From NCBI RefSeq assembly GCF_034359465.1, contig NZ_CP110820.1:798501-862500 (forward strand): a stretch of 64,000 nt of DNA, in the 5' to 3' direction. The stretch is from Candidatus Bandiella woodruffii. GTDB taxonomy: Bacteria; Pseudomonadota; Alphaproteobacteria; Rickettsiales; Midichloriaceae. A model generated the notes under the pieces. It did not search any database. It worked only from the letters and a program-made list of their open reading frames with translations, and was not told where the DNA came from. The translations under genes and the position numbers were made by a program. Below are positions 12,682 to 57,885 of the stretch, in pieces; position 1 is the stretch's first letter; each line of letters begins with the position of its first letter.

Positions 12682-13799
12682 TAAAGGTTGTAACGTTACG
12701 CTTACCAACCACCCAGGCAACAACTCTCTTGAGCTCCCTACTATAGGCTTTCCATATCCATAATTTGTTTTTTTGAATCTACAAAATGCCACATCTCATC
12801 TATTTCAACTTCTCTCAATTCTTCCGGCACTATTGGTCTTGGTATCTTTTTAGCATACAGTATTATCCACTTATATACGCTAGTATGAGCTACTTTAAAT
12901 AATTTCCCTAGCCATCTAAAGCTACTTTTTCCCATGCTGTACAATAACACTGCCAGAGCCTTCATCTCTGGCGAACAGCCTCTTAATTTAGTGTTTGTAA
13001 AATTACATCCACACTCTTTGCATTTATACCTTTGCATACCCCTAATATTACCATTCTTAACGTATTTACTGCTACTGCATTTTTTACACTCTGTATTCAT
13101 ATTTCTATTTTCTTTGTTGCTCGCTATATTCATTTTAGCATCTTATCTATCTTATGGCAACACTCCCTAAAAACTTTACAGAAGGAGATGGTAGGAAGAA
13201 TTGGAAATATGGTAATAAAGAGAGGAGCATGGTGATAAAGATGTATCTAAATAACTGCGGAATTAGGAGGATAGCTCACATATTAAATATCCCGTTAAGT
13301 ACAGTATTTTATTGGATCAAACAAGCAGGGAAAGTAGTAGATGAGATGGTGACGAATCAAAAGATAGAGGGAGATAAGAAGCGTATAGAGATATTAGAGA
13401 TGGATGAGCTATATACATACGTCAAAAAAAAGAGAATAAAACAAGAATATGGACTGCTGTCGATAGGGACAGATTCAAAACTGTTGCGTTTAAAGTAGGT
13501 TCAGGTGATAAAGAAAATTACGTAGATTTAGCTCGTGAGCTAGGAGAAAAATACCAAATTCGTTATATGTGTACAGATGGGTATGAGGTCTATTGTCATT
13601 ATAAAATTGCTCAAATACATCTGCAGACAAAGTCTGAAACTTGTTTGGTTGAGAGCTTCAATTCCTCCTTAAGGGATATGCTTGCTAGATTAAATCGCAA
13701 GACTAAACGCTTTAGCAAGTGTTCTGAAATGCTAAGATTATCCCTTGTTTTATTTTTTAACAAAGCTTTAGCTCTTTCTATCTATTTATGAACACTCCC

Positions 13800-13826
13800 A
13801 TTTTTCAAGTTAGCGGAATATATAAA
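13800..13826 (+). repeat. Remnant of the dispersed palindromic repeat, split by IS-A
   Basis: Joining the bases before IS-A (TTTTACCAATTTTTCA, ending 11364) to those after it (AGTTAGCGGAATATATAA, from 13808) recreates a sequence like the repeat end at 19514-19550 (TTTTGACGCCAATTTTTC, AAGTTATCGGAGTATATA). The IS nest is therefore inserted in a repeat copy that followed the AsmA-like gene. Confidence 0.6.
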
Positions 13827-16395: not shown

Positions 16396-17880
16396 ATGAG
16401 AAATTTTTACATCACAACACCAATTTACTATGTTAACGACAAACCACACATAGGACATGCGTACACAAGCATTGCAGCCGATGTGATCGCCAGGTTCAAA
16501 AGACTGGACGGATTTAACGTAAAATTTTTGACTGGAACCGATGAACATGGTGAAAAAGTTGAAAAATCTGCAAAACACTTTGGATACGAAACGCAAGAGT
16601 TTGTGGATAAAATGGCGTTAAATTTCAGTAATTTGGCAAAAGACTTGAATTTATCAAATGATGATTTCATCAGAACAACTGAAACAAGACATAAAGATTT
16701 TGTAACAAAAATCTGGCGCACCCTTCTGGCAAATGGGGAAATTTATTTGGGGAAATACGCTGGTTGGTATTCTGTAAGAGACGAGGCTTATTATAGTGAA
16801 GCTGAGTTGGTTGGAGGTAAAGCACCAACAGGCGCAAGCGTTGAATGGCTTGAAGAGCCAAGTTATTTTTTTAAACTGTCAGCTTGGCAGGATCGATTAT
16901 TGGCGTTTTATGAAGCAAATCCCGATTTTATTAAGCCAGAAAGTCGAAGGAATGAAGTTATTTCGTTCGTAAAATCTGGCCTTCACGACTTATCTATCTC
17001 AAGAACCTCATTTACTTGGGGGATACCAGTACCAAATGATGGCAAACACGTCATTTATGTATGGCTTGATGCCCTTTTTAACTATGTTTCAGCACTGGGC
17101 ACTGAACAATTTTGGCCAGCAGACTTACATATAATAGGCAAAGATATATTACGTTTTCATGCTGTTTATTGGCCAGCATTTCTAATGGCAGCCAATTTAA
17201 TGCCACCCAAGAGAGTTTTCGCCCACGGTTGGTGGACAAATGAGGGTGAAAAAATATCAAAATCATTAGGGAACGTAATTAACCCGTATGATGTAATGGA
17301 CAAGTACGGTCTTGATTATTTTCGTTATTATTTAATGAAGGAAATGACATTTGGAAACGATGGAAATTTTTCTTATCCATCTTTCATTGACCGAATAAAT
17401 TCAGAATTGGTAAATAAAGTTGGTAATCTAATTCACAGAACCATAAGTTTTATATATAAAAATTGCGGTCAAAAAATGCCATATCCAGCAGAATATGCGG
17501 AGAAAGACAGGGCTATTTTGTCACATAGTTATCAGTTGATTGAAAAAATCAGAGTATTGGTTGACAATCAGTCTTTAAAACAAATTTTAGAGGAGATCAT
17601 TGACCTTGCCAACGCTGCCAATGTGTTTATAGATGAAGAAGCTCCGTGGAAACTTAAGGAATCCGATCCCATAAGAATGCAAACAGTAATGTATGTGCTG
17701 GCTGAAGTCATTAGGGTTATTGCTGTTTTGTTGCAACCTTTTATGCCAGAGTCATCAGCGCAGGCTCTTGATTGCTTAGATGTCAAACAACGCACTTTCA
17801 ATTCCCTGAACTCTGCTAATGGAGTAATTCCAGGGACTGAAATAGTTCAACCAAAAATCATCTTTAATAAAATTGAGTGA
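16396..17880 (+). CDS. metG: Methionyl-tRNA synthetase
   Basis: The 494-residue class I synthetase charges tRNA-Met. The HIGH motif is PHIGH at residues 17-21 and the KMSKS loop is KISKS in GEKISKSLGN. The connective region has the short form without a four-cysteine zinc knuckle, and the protein lacks the C-terminal tRNA-binding dimerisation domain, as in the short MetRS of many alphaproteobacteria. The stop (TGA, 17878-17880) overlaps the GTG start of the next gene, so the two are probably translationally coupled. Confidence 0.96.
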   Translation: MRNFYITTPIYYVNDKPHIGHAYTSIAADVIARFKRLDGFNVKFLTGTDEHGEKVEKSAKHFGYETQEFVDKMALNFSNLAKDLNLSNDDFIRTTETRHKDFVTKIWRTLLANGEIYLGKYAGWYSVRDEAYYSEAELVGGKAPTGASVEWLEEPSYFFKLSAWQDRLLAFYEANPDFIKPESRRNEVISFVKSGLHDLSISRTSFTWGIPVPNDGKHVIYVWLDALFNYVSALGTEQFWPADLHIIGKDILRFHAVYWPAFLMAANLMPPKRVFAHGWWTNEGEKISKSLGNVINPYDVMDKYGLDYFRYYLMKEMTFGNDGNFSYPSFIDRINSELVNKVGNLIHRTISFIYKNCGQKMPYPAEYAEKDRAILSHSYQLIEKIRVLVDNQSLKQILEEIIDLANAANVFIDEEAPWKLKESDPIRMQTVMYVLAEVIRVIAVLLQPFMPESSAQALDCLDVKQRTFNSLNSANGVIPGTEIVQPKIIFNKIE

Positions 17881-19373
17881 CTTTACACGAATTGAAGAAA
17901 AAGCTTCTATACCAAAGTACACATAGGGGGTGCAAGGAACTGGACATAATTTTAGGGGATTTTGCAAGAAAACATCTTATGGGGTTTGATTCACAAAAAA
18001 CCAAAGACTATGAAACACTTCTTAACGCACCTGACAATGATATTTATAGATGGATCACTGGACTACAAGCGGTTCCAAAAGAGTATAAGACTGAAGTGAT
18101 GGATCAGCTCAAAACTTCCGACAAAAAGATATGCAAGATATTTATATCGGCCGGAGAAGCATCGGGAGATAACCTGGCAGCACGACTGATCAATTCTTTA
18201 ATAGAACAAAATAAGCATACTTATGAGTTTTATGGAATTGCAGGGCCTAATATGCAAAATGCTGCTGGCATAAAAAGCATCTTTCCAATGGAAGAGTTAT
18301 CTGTAACAGGTTACTTGGAGATTTTGCCTAAACTATTTAAGATATTATTTCGGTTATTTCAAACAGTCCTATTTGTTAAGAAATTGAAGCCACAGATTAT
18401 TATCACAGTTGACTCTCCCGGGTTCAATTTTTTATTGGCAAAATTAGTAAGATATCTAAAAATACAGTCATTTATAATCAATTACGTTGCTCCTAGTGTT
18501 TGGGCGTACAAACCTGAACGCGCGATTAAATGTGCAAAACTGTTTGATCACATGATGGTGATATTTCCTTTCGAAAAGAAATATTTTGATGAAGTTGGTC
18601 TAAAATGCACTTATGTTGGGAATCCAACCATTAGGAATACAAACATTTACACCCACAAACAGAAAGAAGAGACTAAACAAAGATATGGCGTATCAGGCAA
18701 AAAAATCATTTCCATTATGCCAGGCAGTAGGAATAATGAACTGAAGCAACACCTCCCTACTATCAGAGCCTTTATACAGAAAATGAATAAAGTGCATGAC
18801 GATATGTGGTTCTTCATCCCAACCTTGGACAATATTGAGGAGAAAATTAGAGGACATTTACCTATGGCCAACGTTTTTATCTCCAAAGATGAACATGAAA
18901 AAAAAGAATTGATTAATAGCAGCGACCTTATCATATGCAAATCTGGCACGGTGGTGCTAGAATCTGTCGCAAAACTTATTCCCACCATTGTATTTTATAA
19001 AATGAGTTGCATAACAGCTTATTTCGTCAAAAAAAAGCTGAAAACAAAGTATGTAAGCATTTGCAACATCATGATGGATGAAGAGGTTATTCCCGAACTA
19101 TTACAAGACGGCTTCAATCTCTCAAACTTATTGAAAAAAAGTGAAGTGCTTCTTTTCAATAAAGCTGAGAGAGATAAACAGATTGCAAGTTTCAACTCTT
19201 TTTTACAACAATTTCACGATAAAGATAAAGAGTCGTCACAGCCTAGAAGTGTTATTGACGAGTATACTCAAAGTATTTTAAGAATTGGCAAGGAATTAAG
19301 CGCCGAGCATGAGGAACGTATAAAAGTACGTGACGAAATGCGAGAGCGCAAAAATGACGATGCCAACTTTTAA
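17877..19373 (+). CDS. lpxB: SdhE-LpxB fusion: FAD assembly factor joined to lipid-A-disaccharide synthase
   Basis: The frame of 498 codons starts with GTG at 17877. Residues 1-82 match the SdhE (DUF339) family: the conserved RGxxELD motif is RGCKELD at 17-23, followed by LLNAPDNDIYRWI at 48-60, which corresponds to the family LL..D.DL..WL signature. SdhE helps attach FAD to succinate dehydrogenase. Residues about 85-470 are LpxB (GT19): ISAGEASGD at 90-98, then VDSPGFNF, YVAPSVWAYKPERA, GNPT and GSRNNE. LpxB condenses UDP-2,3-diacylglucosamine with lipid X. No stop separates the two parts; an internal ATG at 18099 could start LpxB alone. The last 25-30 residues (GKELSAEHEERIKVRDEM and following) come from the dispersed repeat at 19259-19550, so the natural C-terminus is altered. 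Confidence 0.85.
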   Translation: MTLHELKKKLLYQSTHRGCKELDIILGDFARKHLMGFDSQKTKDYETLLNAPDNDIYRWITGLQAVPKEYKTEVMDQLKTSDKKICKIFISAGEASGDNLAARLINSLIEQNKHTYEFYGIAGPNMQNAAGIKSIFPMEELSVTGYLEILPKLFKILFRLFQTVLFVKKLKPQIIITVDSPGFNFLLAKLVRYLKIQSFIINYVAPSVWAYKPERAIKCAKLFDHMMVIFPFEKKYFDEVGLKCTYVGNPTIRNTNIYTHKQKEETKQRYGVSGKKIISIMPGSRNNELKQHLPTIRAFIQKMNKVHDDMWFFIPTLDNIEEKIRGHLPMANVFISKDEHEKKELINSSDLIICKSGTVVLESVAKLIPTIVFYKMSCITAYFVKKKLKTKYVSICNIMMDEEVIPELLQDGFNLSNLLKKSEVLLFNKAERDKQIASFNSFLQQFHDKDKESSQPRSVIDEYTQSILRIGKELSAEHEERIKVRDEMRERKNDDANF

Positions 19374-19550
19374 AAGACGGAGAGTATACCTCTCGTAAAT
19401 CAAGAGTTGATGAAATTTATAGACGACAGAGAACTTGGAAAAGAGCGAGGAATACGAGTGATGAGCATGAGGAGCGTACAAAAGTACGTGACGAAATGCG
19501 AAGTCCGAAGTATTTTGACGCCAATTTTTCAAGTTATCGGAGTATATATA
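19259..19550 (+). repeat. Two tandem units of a dispersed palindromic repeat, first one inside lpxB
   Basis: Unit 1 (about 19259-19380) and unit 2 (19381-19550) share the core GAGCATGAGGA, CGTACAAAAGTACG and GACGAAATGCGA, and both end in GGAGTATA. The core forms an imperfect hairpin centred on GTACAAAAGTAC with GCAT/ATGC further out. Unit 1 supplies the LpxB C-terminus. Unit 2 translated in the same frame gives DEHEERTKVRDEMRSPKYF, so the frame used in LpxB is the open one. Related units are at 36672-36807, 42172-42460 and 44934-45098. Confidence 0.8.
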
Positions 19551-35861: not shown

Positions 35862-36587
35862 CTATAGATTTAATTTACAGGAGGTATACTCGTTGAATTC
35901 TTGATTGTCAATTTCTATCAGATCCCTTTCTTTCATACTTCCTATGGAAAACTTACCATATGACGTTCTAATCAGCCTTGTTACCTGTAGGTCAAAACGT
36001 TCAAAAACACGTCTTATCTCCCTATTTTTGCCCTCGCTTAGAGTAACTTTATACCAGGCTTTTGTGTTATGTTGTTTTGTGATTTCTATGAAAATTGGGG
36101 CATACTTTATACTGTCTATTGTGACACCTGCAGCTAACGCTTCTGGCATTTTTGTTGGCATCTTGCCATGAGCTTTGCATAAGTAGACCCTTTCTATCTT
36201 TGTTGATGGCAATTCTAAGGTTCGGGCTAAATTACCACTGTTAGTAAGTAGTATCAGTCCCTCTGTATTGTAATCCAGTCGTCCAACAGAAATTACACGT
36301 CCTATGCTTGATGGCAATATTTCGAATAAAGTTGTTCTTTTTAATGGATCTTTATGGCTTGTTATCACGCCCTTTGGCTTGAAGTACTTCCATAGCTTGA
36401 CGTTAATGTTTTTTGATAAAACTTTCCCAGCTACCGATATTTCATCCTCATCTTTGACAAAGAAAACAGGAGTGTTGATGGTAACGCCATTGACTTTAAC
36501 CAGTCCGTGGGCGATAAGTTTCTCTGCTTCTCTCCTTGAGGATGCGCCGCAGGCTGACAAGGCTTTAGATATTCTGATTAATGACAT
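35862..36587 (-). CDS. rluB: Large-subunit rRNA pseudouridine synthase, RluB/RsuA family
   Basis: The 241-residue enzyme has an N-terminal S4 domain (MSLIRISKALSACGASSRREAEKLI) and the catalytic motif GRLDYNTEGLILLTNSG with its Asp, followed by KARxYxV-like ERVYLCKAHG and EGKNREIRRVFE. I chose ATG 36587. The frame stays open to 36725, but the extra 46 codons consist of a hydrophobic stretch and, at their start, the dispersed repeat (SPKHDVTNFLSYRGYA). No clear ribosome-binding site marks either start. RluB or RluE-type specificity cannot be settled from sequence. Confidence 0.88.
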   Translation of the reverse strand: MSLIRISKALSACGASSRREAEKLIAHGLVKVNGVTINTPVFFVKDEDEISVAGKVLSKNINVKLWKYFKPKGVITSHKDPLKRTTLFEILPSSIGRVISVGRLDYNTEGLILLTNSGNLARTLELPSTKIERVYLCKAHGKMPTKMPEALAAGVTIDSIKYAPIFIEITKQHNTKAWYKVTLSEGKNREIRRVFERFDLQVTRLIRTSYGKFSIGSMKERDLIEIDNQEFNEYTSCKLNL

Positions 36588-36671
36588 GTTGGATTTTAAT
36601 AATAAGAAACATGAGAATATTGAGACAAAAAACTTACACCTTAATACAACACTCTTCAACATAATGCCTGA

Positions 36672-36807
36672 AGCATACCCACGATAACTTAAAAAGTTAG
36701 TGACATCATGTTTCGGACTTCCCATTTAGTTGTGTGCCTTTGTGCGCTCTTCATGCTTATCACTCGCACCCCTAGCTCTTTCTGAATTTTTTAATTTACC
36801 AGAAGTA
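36672..36807 (-). repeat. Divergent copy of the dispersed palindromic repeat upstream of rluB
   Basis: On the minus strand it carries GATAAGCATGAAGAGCGCACAAAG, split here as GATAAGCATG and AAGAGCGCACAAAG, then GGAAGTCCGAAACATG and AAGTTATCGTGGGTATG. This follows the order of the unit at 19381-19550. In the same frame it reads DKHEERTK, a stop, then MGSPKHDVTNFLSYR, which runs open into rluB. Confidence 0.65.
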
Positions 36808-40829: not shown

Positions 40830-42164
40830 ATGACCACAGTAACAAGGTTTGCACCATCACCAACTGGATTATTGCATGTTGGCAATTTAAGGACCGCCAT
40901 CATGGCATGGATATATGCGAGAAAAAAAGGTGGGCAGTTCATATTGAGAATCGACGATACCGATACAGAAAGGTCTAAACAGGAGTATATAGATGCCTTA
41001 AAAGAAGACCTGGTTTGGCTGGGTATAAACTGGGATTTATCATTCAATCAATCAGACAGAATGGTCAAATATGAGGATGCAAAACAAAAACTTATTCGGT
41101 CTGGAAGGTTGTACCCATGTTACGAAACGGAAGAGGAGTTAAACTTAAAAAGGAAAAACCTGCTTAGCAGAAACTTGCCGCCAATTTATGATAGAGCAGC
41201 ATTGAAGCTGACTTCGGGAGAAAGGCAAGATTTAGAGCAAAAAGGAATTATGCCTCATTGGAGATTTCTGCTAAAAGATGAAGACATAGTTTGGCAAGAT
41301 AAAGTAAGGGGTGAGTTGAAATTTAGTGCAAAATATTTGAGTGATCCCGTTCTTGTGAGGGCAAATCAAACCCTAACTTATAGCTTAGCATCAGTGGTAG
41401 ACGATGCGGAATATGGGGTGACAGACATCATACGTGGAGAAGATCACATTTCAAATAGTGCAGTTCACATACAGTTGTTTGAGGCAATGGGAGCTAAAGT
41501 TCCAGAATTTTCGCATATATCATTGCTCAGTACTAAAGAAAAAAAGTTATCCAAAAGAACAGGGGGGTTTGATGTAAAAAACCTAAGAAAAAATGGTATA
41601 TTACCACTAGCGTTATTAATATTCCTCTCTAGGATTGGAACCTCTGATGCTGTTGATCCTGAAAAAAGAGTGCAGGACATAATGAAAGATTTTGAGTTCT
41701 ATAAGCTGAACAAGGCGACTGTGCAGTATGATTATGAGGAGTTGGCGGGGTTTAACGTCAAGGTTATTCATTCACTGAGATATGAAGAGGTGAAGAATAA
41801 GTTAAATGATTTAGGTCTTAATGAGGTTTATGAAGAGTTTTGGGTTTTTATAAGGGGAAACATAGACAGATTGGAGGAAGTTGGACTATGGTGGAGTGTG
41901 TGTAAAGAAGATATTCAGACAGAGATATTAGATAAGGAATTAATCCAACTGGCAGCGGAGCAATTGCCGGAAGGGGAGTTGAAGAGTGAAACTTGGGATT
42001 TATGGATCAATAACATAAAAAGCTGTACTAAAAAAAGAGGGCAGGAGCTTTTTTTGCCAATGAGAGTTGCCTTAACAGGTCAGAGGAAAGGACCAGAACT
42101 CAGGGTTCTGCTGCCATTCATGGACAAATCACTCATTCTAAAAAGGTTAGGTGTTGCTAAATAA
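40830..42164 (+). CDS. gltX: Glutamyl-tRNA synthetase
   Basis: The 444-residue class Ib synthetase has FAPSPTGLLHVGN with the HIGH-type motif HVGN at 16-19, RIDDTDTERS, DIIRGEDHISNSAVH and the KMSKS-type KLSKR in STKEKKLSKRTGG. It charges tRNA-Glu. In organisms without glutaminyl-tRNA synthetase such enzymes also misacylate tRNA-Gln for GatCAB. Many Rickettsiales carry two copies; only one is seen here and its specificity is not evident. A copy of the dispersed repeat begins 8 bp after the stop. Confidence 0.95.
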   Translation: MTTVTRFAPSPTGLLHVGNLRTAIMAWIYARKKGGQFILRIDDTDTERSKQEYIDALKEDLVWLGINWDLSFNQSDRMVKYEDAKQKLIRSGRLYPCYETEEELNLKRKNLLSRNLPPIYDRAALKLTSGERQDLEQKGIMPHWRFLLKDEDIVWQDKVRGELKFSAKYLSDPVLVRANQTLTYSLASVVDDAEYGVTDIIRGEDHISNSAVHIQLFEAMGAKVPEFSHISLLSTKEKKLSKRTGGFDVKNLRKNGILPLALLIFLSRIGTSDAVDPEKRVQDIMKDFEFYKLNKATVQYDYEELAGFNVKVIHSLRYEEVKNKLNDLGLNEVYEEFWVFIRGNIDRLEEVGLWWSVCKEDIQTEILDKELIQLAAEQLPEGELKSETWDLWINNIKSCTKKRGQELFLPMRVALTGQRKGPELRVLLPFMDKSLILKRLGVAK

Positions 42165-42171
42165 ACATATA

Positions 42172-42460
42172 TATACTCCGATAACTTGAAAAATTGGCCT
42201 CAAAATACTTCGGATTTCGCATAACGTTTAGGTACATATGTACGCGCCTCATGCTCATCGCTTGTATTCCTAGCTCTTTTCCAAGTTCTCTGTCGTCTAT
42301 AAATTTGCCAACCCTTGATTTACTAGAGGTATATACAGCGTGTCTTTTAAAAGTTGGCGCCGTCATCTTCGCGTTCTCGCATTTAGTTGTGTACTTCTTT
42401 GTATGCTCATCATGATCGCCACTCAATTCCTTGCCAAATTTTGATTTACTGAGGTATGCT
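42172..42460 (-). repeat. Two tandem units of the dispersed palindromic repeat behind gltX
   Basis: On the minus strand the order is the same as at 19259-19550: a short unit (42336-42460) then a long unit (42172-42335). The long unit has GACGACAGAGAACTTGGAAA, GAGCATGAGGCGCGTACATA and AAGTTATCGGAGTATATA. Centre is the palindrome GTACATATGTAC. The open frame across both units gives KFIDDRELGKELGI and NPKYFEANFSSYRSIY, but it has no ribosome-binding site. IS-A copy A8 is inserted 8 bp beyond. Confidence 0.8.
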
Positions 42461-42468
42461 AAATTTTA

Positions 42469-43273
42469 GGGAGTGTTCATAAATAGATAGAAAGAGCTAA
42501 AGCTTTGTTAAAAAATAAAACAAGGGATAATCTTAGCATTTCAGAACACTTGCTAAAGCGTTTAGTCTTGCGATTTAATCTAGCAAGCATATCCCTTAAG
42601 GAGGAATTGAAGCTCTCAACCAAACAAGTTTCAGACTTTGTCTGCAGATGTATTTGAGCAATTTTATAATGACAATAGACCTCATACCCATCTGTACACA
42701 TATAACGAATTTGGTATTTTTCTCCTAGCTCACGAGCTAAATCTACGTAATTTTCTTTATCACCTGAACCTACTTTAAACGCAACAGTTTTGAATCTGTC
42801 CCTATCGACAGCAGTCCATATTCTTGTTTTATTCTCTTTTTTTTGACGTATGTATATAGCTCATCCATCTCTAATATCTCTATACGCTTCTTATCTCCCT
42901 CTATCTTTTGATTCGTCACCATCTCATCTACTACTTTCCCTGCTTGTTTGATCCAATAAAATACTGTACTTAACGGGATATTTAATATGTGAGCTATCCT
43001 CCTAATTCCGCAGTTATTTAGATACATCTTTATCACCATGCTCCTCTCTTTATTACCATATTTCCAATTCTTCCTACCATCTCCTTCTGTAAAGTTTTTA
43101 TTACAACTCTTACATTTGTATCTCTGCTTTTTCCTTGCATATCCATTTTTTGATACCCCTTTCCCTTTGCAATATTTACATTCTATTTTCTCCATTTTTC
43201 CCTTTCTTTTTTTTCCTTCCCTCTCCTTATATCACATTCTTTTCTTCTTTCCTATCCCTTTTAAAACACTCCC
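42469..43273 (-). mobile_element. IS-A copy A8, complete
   Basis: This 805-bp copy is in reverse orientation. The flanks are TAAATTTTA on the left and CAAATTTTA on the right, a 9-bp duplication with one mismatch (or 8 bp plus an extra C). Confidence 0.93.
42477..43195 (-). CDS. IS-A transposase (two frames, A8 tract)
   Basis: Both frames and the A8 tract match the reference copy at 38202-38920; no disabling change is visible. Confidence 0.85.
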
Positions 43274-43372
43274 CAAATTTTATGCAGCAAAGTACAATTT
43301 CGACATTTTGTCTTGAATTTATGGGTTATTCCTCTATACTCTTGGCAATCGATATATTGACGCATTTAATAA

Positions 43373-44933: not shown

Positions 44934-45098
44934 TATACTCCGATAACTTGAAAAATTGGCGTCGTCATACTTCGGATTTCGCATAACGTTTAGGTACATA
45001 TGTACGCGCCTCATGCTCATCGCTTGTATTCCTAGCTCTTTTCCAAGTTCTCTGTCGTCTATAAATTTGCCAACCCTTGATTTACCAGAGGTATATAT
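44934..45098 (-). repeat. Single long unit of the dispersed palindromic repeat behind the APC permease
   Basis: It is almost identical to 42172-42335 over its full length of about 165 bp, including CCGATAACTTGAAAAATTGG and the GTACATATGTAC centre. It lies in a 407-bp gap (44825-45231) that otherwise holds nothing recognisable. Confidence 0.85.
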
Positions 45099-56673: not shown

Positions 56674-57885
56674 ATGCAAAATTTTACATCACTAGATCTG
56701 CCTGACTCTCTGCTTAGTTCACTTAAAAGGTTAGGATTCACAACACCCACGCCGATTCAGGCTAAAGCAATTCCAGCAGCGCTTGAAGGGAAAGATATAA
56801 TAGGTTCAGCTCAAACAGGAACTGGGAAAACCATGGCGTTTTTGATCCCAGTAATTGCCCAGCTTCTGTCATCAAGCAACAGCAAGGCGTTAATAATGAC
56901 GCCAACCAGAGAACTTGCTGCCCAAGTGCAGAAAGTTATGGATGAGCTTCTTGTTGGAATGGGGAAAATTTCTTCTGTTTTGTTAATAGGTGGGGCGCCA
57001 ATATTCAAACAAATGCAAAAACTTAAGAGTAATCCACGCATGATTGTTGGTACTCCTGGCAGGATTACGGACCATTTAATTCGTAAAAGTTTAACATTAA
57101 AAAACATAAGCTTCCTTGTTGTTGACGAGTCAGACCGCATGTTAGATATGGGGTTTAGTATTCAACTTGATAAGATTGTCGAGTATCTGCCTAAAGAGCG
57201 TCAAACATTAATGTTTTCTGCTACTTTTTCTCCAGAAGTTTTGTCTCTATCTAAGAAATACTTGTCTAATCCCGAGCGCATCTCTGTTGGGGAAGTGAAT
57301 AAGGCTGCTCAACATATCAAACAAGAGACGCTACATACAAATGGCACTAAAAAATATGAGGACTTAATTGCAGAACTAGATAAAAGAGATGGTTCTATAC
57401 TTGTTTTTGTAAACACCAAAATCGGTGCTGCTAAATTAACAGAGAAACTGGCAAGAAACAATCATAGCGTTGCAACTTTACACGGAGACATTGAACATCG
57501 CAAGCGCGAACGTGTGATAGGTGAATTTCGTGCAGGAAACTTCAGAATTATGGTTGCCACCGATGTTGCTTCTCGTGGCCTTGATATCTCTCACATCAAG
57601 CATGTAATCAATTATGACATACCAAGAAGCCATGAGGATTATATTCATCGCATAGGCAGAACTGCAAGAGCTGAGAGCACAGGAACAGCGCTGAACTTTA
57701 TCTTGCCGGAAGAAATAAAGAAATGGAAAATCATTGAGCGTTTAATGAATCCAGGCAGCAATCCTGTAGCCGAGGGTAAACACATGAAGAAGCATTATAA
57801 TCCATCGAAACGCAAACCTGGAAAGAAGAATTACACCTTCGCAAAACCAAGCTTTCCAAAGGCAAAGAGGACAAGTCATGCCTAG
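56674..57885 (+). CDS. DEAD-box RNA helicase (RhlE/DeaD type) with DESD motif
   Basis: The 403-residue ATP-dependent RNA helicase has a Q motif (GFTTPTPIQAKAI), motif I AQTGTGKT at 46-53, PTRELA, GTPGR, motif II DESD in place of DEAD, FSATF, HGDIEHRKRERV, and motif VI HRIGRTARA. A short Lys-rich tail (KRKPGKKNYTFAKPSFPKAKR) can hold RNA. Such helicases unwind structured RNA in ribosome assembly and mRNA decay. The third residue of motif II is Ser rather than Ala, which is unusual but conserves the Mg-binding acids. Confidence 0.93.
   Translation: MQNFTSLDLPDSLLSSLKRLGFTTPTPIQAKAIPAALEGKDIIGSAQTGTGKTMAFLIPVIAQLLSSSNSKALIMTPTRELAAQVQKVMDELLVGMGKISSVLLIGGAPIFKQMQKLKSNPRMIVGTPGRITDHLIRKSLTLKNISFLVVDESDRMLDMGFSIQLDKIVEYLPKERQTLMFSATFSPEVLSLSKKYLSNPERISVGEVNKAAQHIKQETLHTNGTKKYEDLIAELDKRDGSILVFVNTKIGAAKLTEKLARNNHSVATLHGDIEHRKRERVIGEFRAGNFRIMVATDVASRGLDISHIKHVINYDIPRSHEDYIHRIGRTARAESTGTALNFILPEEIKKWKIIERLMNPGSNPVAEGKHMKKHYNPSKRKPGKKNYTFAKPSFPKAKRTSHA

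Follow-up and report, generated by a model that had tools for sequence, protein, structure and literature searches.

The window, that is, the whole stretch of 64,000 nucleotides analyzed here, corresponds to C1:798501-862500 of a three-contig genome of 1,225,299 bp. Gene content and related genomes resemble Rickettsiales, probably Midichloriaceae. On its plus strand, gltX encoding glutamyl-tRNA synthetase (40830..42164; ORF with Pfam tRNA-synt_1c, E 1.7e-69) is followed by two related units that adjoin each other, as had been noticed from the sequence before. The long unit (162 bp, 42172..42333, minus strand) begins 8 bp past the gltX stop codon (42162-42164); both of its ends were mapped and its relatives are spread across the whole genome. 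Its minus strand is the transposase-sense strand, which reads from end 2 to end 1. End 1, TATACTCCGATAACTTGAAAAATTGGC (42172..42198), was identified by genome matches and by its similarity to the right end of IS630 elements (19/27), and end 2, on the minus strand TATACCTCTAGTAAATCAAGGGTTGGC (42307..42333), by genome matches and its similarity to the IS630 left end (20-21/27). The short unit is a diverged copy of approximately 128 bp (42332..~42459, minus strand). Judged by eye, one of its ends is of type B and the far one is end-2-like. Both units have a TATATA junction in common (42330..42335, read from the sequence), and overlapping TATA/TA junctions are also present at further element pairs. 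An IS copy belonging to one of the repeated IS families of the window is located directly 3' of the pair (42467..43276). The description of the locus as a tandem repeat was not confirmed by Tandem Repeats Finder, which reports none; the pair rather consists of two unlike members of one family sharing TATATA.

The same unit order is found in inverted orientation behind lpxB (19263-19546), as originally described; the alignment of 42168-42450 with 19272-19550 displays 83.1% identity over 284 columns. Here, a short MITE with ends A and B (19263..19388, plus strand) is joined to a long MITE running from end 2 to end 1 (19385..19546, plus strand), and the ends of both were mapped. The far end of this short unit is of type A, unlike the end-2-like end of its counterpart at gltX (by eye). 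The preceding ORF (17877..19373, plus strand) is an apparent gene fusion according to Pfam, in which an SdhE (Sdh5) domain precedes an LpxB domain (aa 88-451). Its last approximately 36 codons and the stop codon are supplied by the short MITE, and excision of this element in silico yields a protein of 473 aa instead of the 498 aa encoded at present.

The expectation that the units lie directly at gene borders holds for gltX, but not for lpxB, where the ORF extends into the short unit, which contains its stop codon. A single long MITE (44934..45095, minus strand, 97% identity to the gltX copy) is indeed located behind the APC permease gene, but not directly, as it starts 109 bp past the stop codon. 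The copy at rluB, which had been listed as a further case, is a degenerate fragment (36682..36781, minus strand, 70-77% identity) covering the annotated start; it lies across the 5' rather than the 3' end of the ORF. The rluB ORF (35862-36725, minus strand) begins within this fragment, and since the S4 domain begins only at residue 50, the true start of rluB probably lies downstream of the annotated one. An end remnant (13797..13822, minus strand) adjoins the end of an IS copy. Several IS families are present in the window in many near-identical copies (five of one family, three to four of others), and the genome is under heavy IS expansion.

Copy number and terminal sequences of the element family

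The 27-nt end 1 sequence has 67 matches in the genome at ≤3 mismatches (33 forward, 34 reverse) versus none for the reversed-pattern control; end 2 has 44 matches, and 11 were obtained for end A, which belongs to the short unit. Scanning the 328,868 bases around the end matches resulted in 178 end-like sites at ≤7 mismatches. The set used for counting comprises 50 elements with both ends, located in 47 clusters, after removal of three overlapping end pairings; the gltX short unit is absent from it because its far end is beyond the limit of 7 mismatches. Exactly 162 bp were found for 24 of the 35 long copies (hand count). The elements are short (162 or approximately 126 bp), present in multiple copies, and devoid of a transposase gene, as is typical of MITEs, and identical copies at different places (210893 and 867411) indicate a recent spread. 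Searches of plasmids and phages with the long unit gave no match, a pattern scan of a collection of genome contigs led to two single matches in unrelated phyla, and Rfam 15 at gathering score detected no match to the elements and only four tRNAs in the window. A stretch of 975 bp with unpaired ends (C1:529802-530776) was considered as a candidate autonomous IS, but turned out to be a nested insertion, in which an element of the family is split by an IS copy of approximately 806 bp. A further end type (TATACTCCGCTAACTTTAAAAATTGGC; e.g., C1:722385, 623187, and 327312), mostly without a recognized partner end, suggests another subfamily.

Intact IS630 copies of 1111 bp are present in three genomes (G147, G112, and G131) and share 66-67% amino acid identity with a transposase remnant in the genome under study. 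The protein encoded by the intact IS contains the Pfam domains DDE_3 (2.6e-32) and HTH_33, and its annotated relatives on plasmids are designated "IS630 family transposase." In all three genomes, the left end of the IS matches end 2 (20-21/27) and not end 1 (15-16/27), and the right end matches end 1 (19/27) and not end 2 (14/27). In 20,000 shuffles of the end that kept TATAC fixed, an identity as high as that observed occurred 0 and 15 times. The final codons of the remnant, which has 150 amino acids and is the single Pfam DDE_3 match of the genome, lie within TATACCACATTAACTTGAAGAGTTGGC, a sequence identical to end 1 at 21/27 positions. A second fragment with this type of end is located at 57384-57482. 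Matches to the remnant were obtained in 21/173 genomes of the order at E ≤1e-10. An intact IS630 element with these exact ends was not found in the genome under study; hence, the mobilizing enzyme there would be a remnant or come from elsewhere. A different IS630 group (two copies of 1100 bp in G138) has visibly different ends, and for the IS630 matches in G001, G004, G011, and G014, no convincing matching ends were detected in the fetched stretches. In G007, which belongs to the same family as the window, IS630 relatives (L158 and L176) are present in multiple copies and contain several stop codons; one left end among them is end-2-like (TATATCTCTAATAAATAGAGAGTAGGC).

An additional TA precedes the terminal TATA in 16/37 copies and follows it in 22/39, compared with 10.5% of 2,864 TATA sites. 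The target is probably TA with a preference for TA runs, and a 2-bp duplication of TA would be expected both from the TATA on either side and from the family, as IS630 elements are described to insert into TA with TA duplication (PMC2170065). Taken together, we are highly confident that the units are internally deleted, transposase-less MITEs of an IS630/Tc1-mariner IS, which came to adjoin each other by independent insertion and do not form a composite. An IS630 transposase acting in trans would recognize the two unlike ends, end 1 corresponding to the right and end 2 to the left end of the IS, and would paste copies into TA dinucleotides, preferably into TA runs.

By description, the elements resemble RUP of Streptococcus pneumoniae (with IS630-Spn1), which is likewise short, present in high copy number, and without transposase and has IS630-like ends and a TA target (PMC2229807). 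However, RUP has a length of 107 bp, and the elements of the window differ in having two unlike ends and a remnant or foreign IS630. The Correia/NEMIS elements of Neisseria are also described as TA-ended MITEs, of 107-155 bp with terminal repeats of approximately 24 bp and hairpin-forming transcripts (PMC2229807); they are reported to be located mostly upstream of genes (PMC10969869), whereas the elements of the window are mostly found downstream. Within the Rickettsiales, the miniature IS mISOt1, 2, and 4 of Orientia are described as similarly non-autonomous elements sharing their ends with an IS (PMC10732058). Among the publications listed on IS630 MITEs in Rickettsiales, on miniature inverted-repeat elements in Midichloria, and on palindromic elements in Midichloriaceae, no statement connecting palindromic elements with IS630 was found.

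Insertion near gene ends and next to resident copies

Removal of the elements in silico gave 47 insertion points, of which 22 are located in convergent gaps. Tandem gaps contain 14, divergent gaps 4, and ORFs, called crudely by length only (≥90 aa, longest first), the remaining 7. In all seven of the latter, the distance to an end of the ORF is at most 63 bp. For comparison, ORFs contain 74.7% of 12,127 TA sites. The genome-wide mapping relative to gene ends, thus, corroborates the proposed placement at gene borders: 40/47 insertions are intergenic, and 16 of these 40 are located no more than 20 bp from a stop codon versus 210 of 2,210 null TA sites (9.5%, Fisher p 4.5e-7). Near start codons (≤20 bp), only 1/40 insertions was found versus 203/2,210 null sites. 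The excess near stop codons is also seen when convergent gaps are considered alone (12/22 insertions versus 175/1,224 null sites). Of 85 intergenic TATATA runs, 18.8% have a stop codon at a distance of at most 20 bp; since this is below the 16/40 observed, the preference for TA runs explains only a part of the bias. Three IS families from the same stretches display no clear bias (0/4, 3/6, and 0/3 intergenic copies within 20 bp of a stop codon), but the numbers are too small to serve as a control. Purifying selection is probably involved, in that copies would persist where they are least harmful, namely, between convergent genes, in other gaps on the 3' side of genes, and in ORF tails.

The original prediction considered a role of the gltX pair as a transcript-end structure. 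In its general form, this explanation regards the units as exapted bidirectional terminators or 3' stabilizers retained by selection at gene ends, which would be in accordance with the excess near stop codons, with the 22/47 insertions between convergent genes, and with the hairpins predicted for the lpxB copies (short unit: very stable, RNA fold -43.8 kcal/mol, z -8.0; long unit: z -5.0). We nevertheless consider it unlikely. For gltX itself, no positive support was obtained: the region 42100-42600 contains no intrinsic terminator (GC-rich stem plus T run; 0 sites), a T-tract is missing, and the fold of the gltX copy in gltX mRNA sense (z -0.08) and that of the whole pair (z 0.43) are no better than those of shuffled sequences; a second fold of the gltX copy gave z -2.06. 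Another copy of the gltX subfamily likewise folds like shuffles in gltX mRNA sense (z 1.04). Moreover, the near-stop long copies face the gene with end 1 in 10/15 cases and with end 2 in 5/15 (hand count), which argues against a fixed orientation, and there is no sign of positional conservation.

The adjoining of elements is not restricted to gltX and lpxB. Of 100 element borders, 14 (11 distinct junctions) lie within 6 bp of another element end versus 1.04% of 5,000 random TA positions, so that pairs recur above chance, as had been anticipated. The majority of the pair junctions overlap in TATA, the arrangement to be expected if a new copy enters the TA at the end of a resident one. We infer that adjoining results from the preference for TA runs together with the TATA present at either end of each element: resident copies would serve as good targets, and new copies would land head-on against old ones, thereby forming pairs.

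The identical order and relative orientation of the units at gltX and lpxB, together with the 83.1% identity mentioned above, had also led to the proposal that the approximately 290-bp pair is one composite mobile unit transposing as a whole. This has very little probability in light of the relationships of the individual units. The two long units share 89% identity with each other and belong to different subfamilies, but each has a relative of 99.4% identity elsewhere in the genome (429155, followed by 1097255 with 97.5%, for the gltX copy; 915955 and 482254, both 99.4%, for the lpxB copy), and identity between the short units amounts to just 68%. In addition, the junctions are built from different ends at different sites, as the short unit is joined to the long one by its A end at 473199-473480 and 600929-601214, but by its B end at lpxB. 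Most long copies occur without a short unit (35 long versus 10 short copies aligned from the fetched stretches), and a joint inheritance of both units at several sites was not found.

Relationship to the Rickettsia palindromic element RPE5

Of the 173 genomes available for the order, 18, representing six genera, contain a 26-nt pattern derived from end 1 (≤2 mismatches). Seven of these 18 genomes belong to the family of the window and 11 to the genus g24 of another family. One of the latter (G164) also holds RPE1, RPE2, and RPE3, so that g24 corresponds to Rickettsia by the names of these models. RPEs are described as selfish palindromes of 105-146 bp (or approximately 100-150 nt) located in frame in genes, with a question mark given for target duplication (PMC2229807, PMC4316617), and ten RPE families are mentioned in PMC10969869. 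The g24 elements have the same core as those of the window and also the same end 2 if it is intact (L189 and L190), and the peptide encoded by one of them (L191) matches the NCBIfam model RPE5 (TIGR03776) above its cut-off (9.2e-12). Of 17 genomes searched with this model, 13 gave matches, namely, all 11 genomes of g24 as well as G147 and G112, versus 0/14 control genomes; there was no match in the genome under study, G004, G014, and G131, the last of which has the intact IS. The peptides of our own elements had no match to the curated RPE5 peptide model. Searches of plasmids with two g24 elements gave no match.

At the DNA level, an nhmmer profile was built from the 35 long copies, with shuffled sequences as a control. 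It matched the g24 RPE5 loci L230 (2.6e-14), L240 (3.9e-14), and L226 (9.8e-13) as well as the element of G112 (L235, 9.6e-17, covering positions 2-160 of the profile), mostly near end to end. A 400-kb sample of G164, taken at even spacing, yielded 10 further matches at E ≤1.4e-5, whereas the shuffled sequences gave none. RPE5 agrees with the elements of the window at 23/27 positions in end 1 and 20/27 in end 2, and its peptide at 14/25 positions with that of the long unit and at 15/36 with the MITE-derived LpxB tail (E 2e-6 in that single comparison). End 2 of the G112 element agrees with the left end of IS630, in its G147 version, at 24/27 positions. Of 30 RPE5 loci, 17 have an end 1 at ≤5 mismatches (versus 3/150 control windows) and the other 13 do not. 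A scan of the G164 sample revealed 24 end-like sites versus 2 for reversed patterns, and only two elements retain both ends. Because the profile of the window's family finds RPE5 near end to end, RPE5, judged from sequence homology, is very likely an IS630 MITE as well.

The two groups differ in length and location. RPE5 has a modal length of 152 bp (15/30 loci, hand count), and the elements of the window 162 or approximately 126 bp. RPE5 is often found as an in-frame insertion within genes, among them rsmE and mpg, which were named via PDB matches; further host genes were assigned from their sequences. The elements of the window, in contrast, are nearly all intergenic and without a match to the RPE5 model; in-frame insertion inside protein-coding genes was not found in this family, and lpxB receives only a C-terminal tail. 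The RsmE protein contains 47 extra residues between flanking matches in comparison with a solved homologue (78 versus 31), a number close to the gain of 50 codons expected from a 152-bp element with duplicated TA. A 162-bp copy with duplicated TA would add 160 bp and break the reading frame, whereas the 152-bp RPE5 of g24 would add 150 bp and could, therefore, reside inside genes. We consider it probable that the RPE5 group consists of IS630-family MITEs and forms one superfamily with the non-coding 3'-end elements in other families of the order, such as those in the genome under study; the length (net +150 versus +160 bp) would decide between genes and gene ends.

That the elements are instead protein-coding insertions retained for their peptide, as claimed for RPEs, is most improbable: two frames are open through 22/35 and 17/35 long copies and LpxB acquires a tail resembling the RPE5 peptide, but core substitutions by codon position in the main frame (88, 104, 68) show a minimum, not a maximum, at the third position, with no synonymous excess, and only 7/47 insertion points are in ORFs, each ≤63 bp from an ORF end.

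Adjoining MITEs as such are ordinary, and the weight rests on the chain connecting the element of the window, as an IS630 MITE, with RPE5 as its homologue. In the literature retrieved, which did not extend to the founding RPE papers, no statement joins RPEs to IS630. The 2007 review was the single paper retrieved in which palindromic elements, Rickettsia, and IS630 occur together, and the passages considered here do not connect them; no mobilizing enzyme for elements of the RPE5 group is mentioned, and earlier proposals are possible. The new part is the homology of the MITEs to RPE5 and, with it, a likely origin of the RPE5 class, previously unclear, as far as sequence comparison can tell. This would name the enzyme family likely behind the spread of one class of selfish DNA inside Rickettsia proteins and would offer a simple length rule for gene-tolerated versus gene-excluded insertion.

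In the 400-kb sample of G164, no IS630-type ends were observed for RPE1, RPE2, and RPE3 (by eye). Since these have other ends, the claim is confined to RPE5. A central GCGTAC...GTACGTGAG hairpin is common to RPE1, RPE3 (L204-L223), RPE5, and the elements of the window, but RPE1 and RPE3 have different ends (by eye); they may represent a common core re-ended by other IS families. According to Matsutani (2013), ATGAC motifs set RPE-4, -6, and -7 apart from RPE-1, -2, -3, and -5 (PMC3767692). A further repeat family of G164 (family 0, GTCATTGCGAG... type), two peptides of which matched no NCBIfam model, occupies 177 places in the 400-kb sample and fits, by description only, the ATGAC-rich RPE-4/6/7 of that report.
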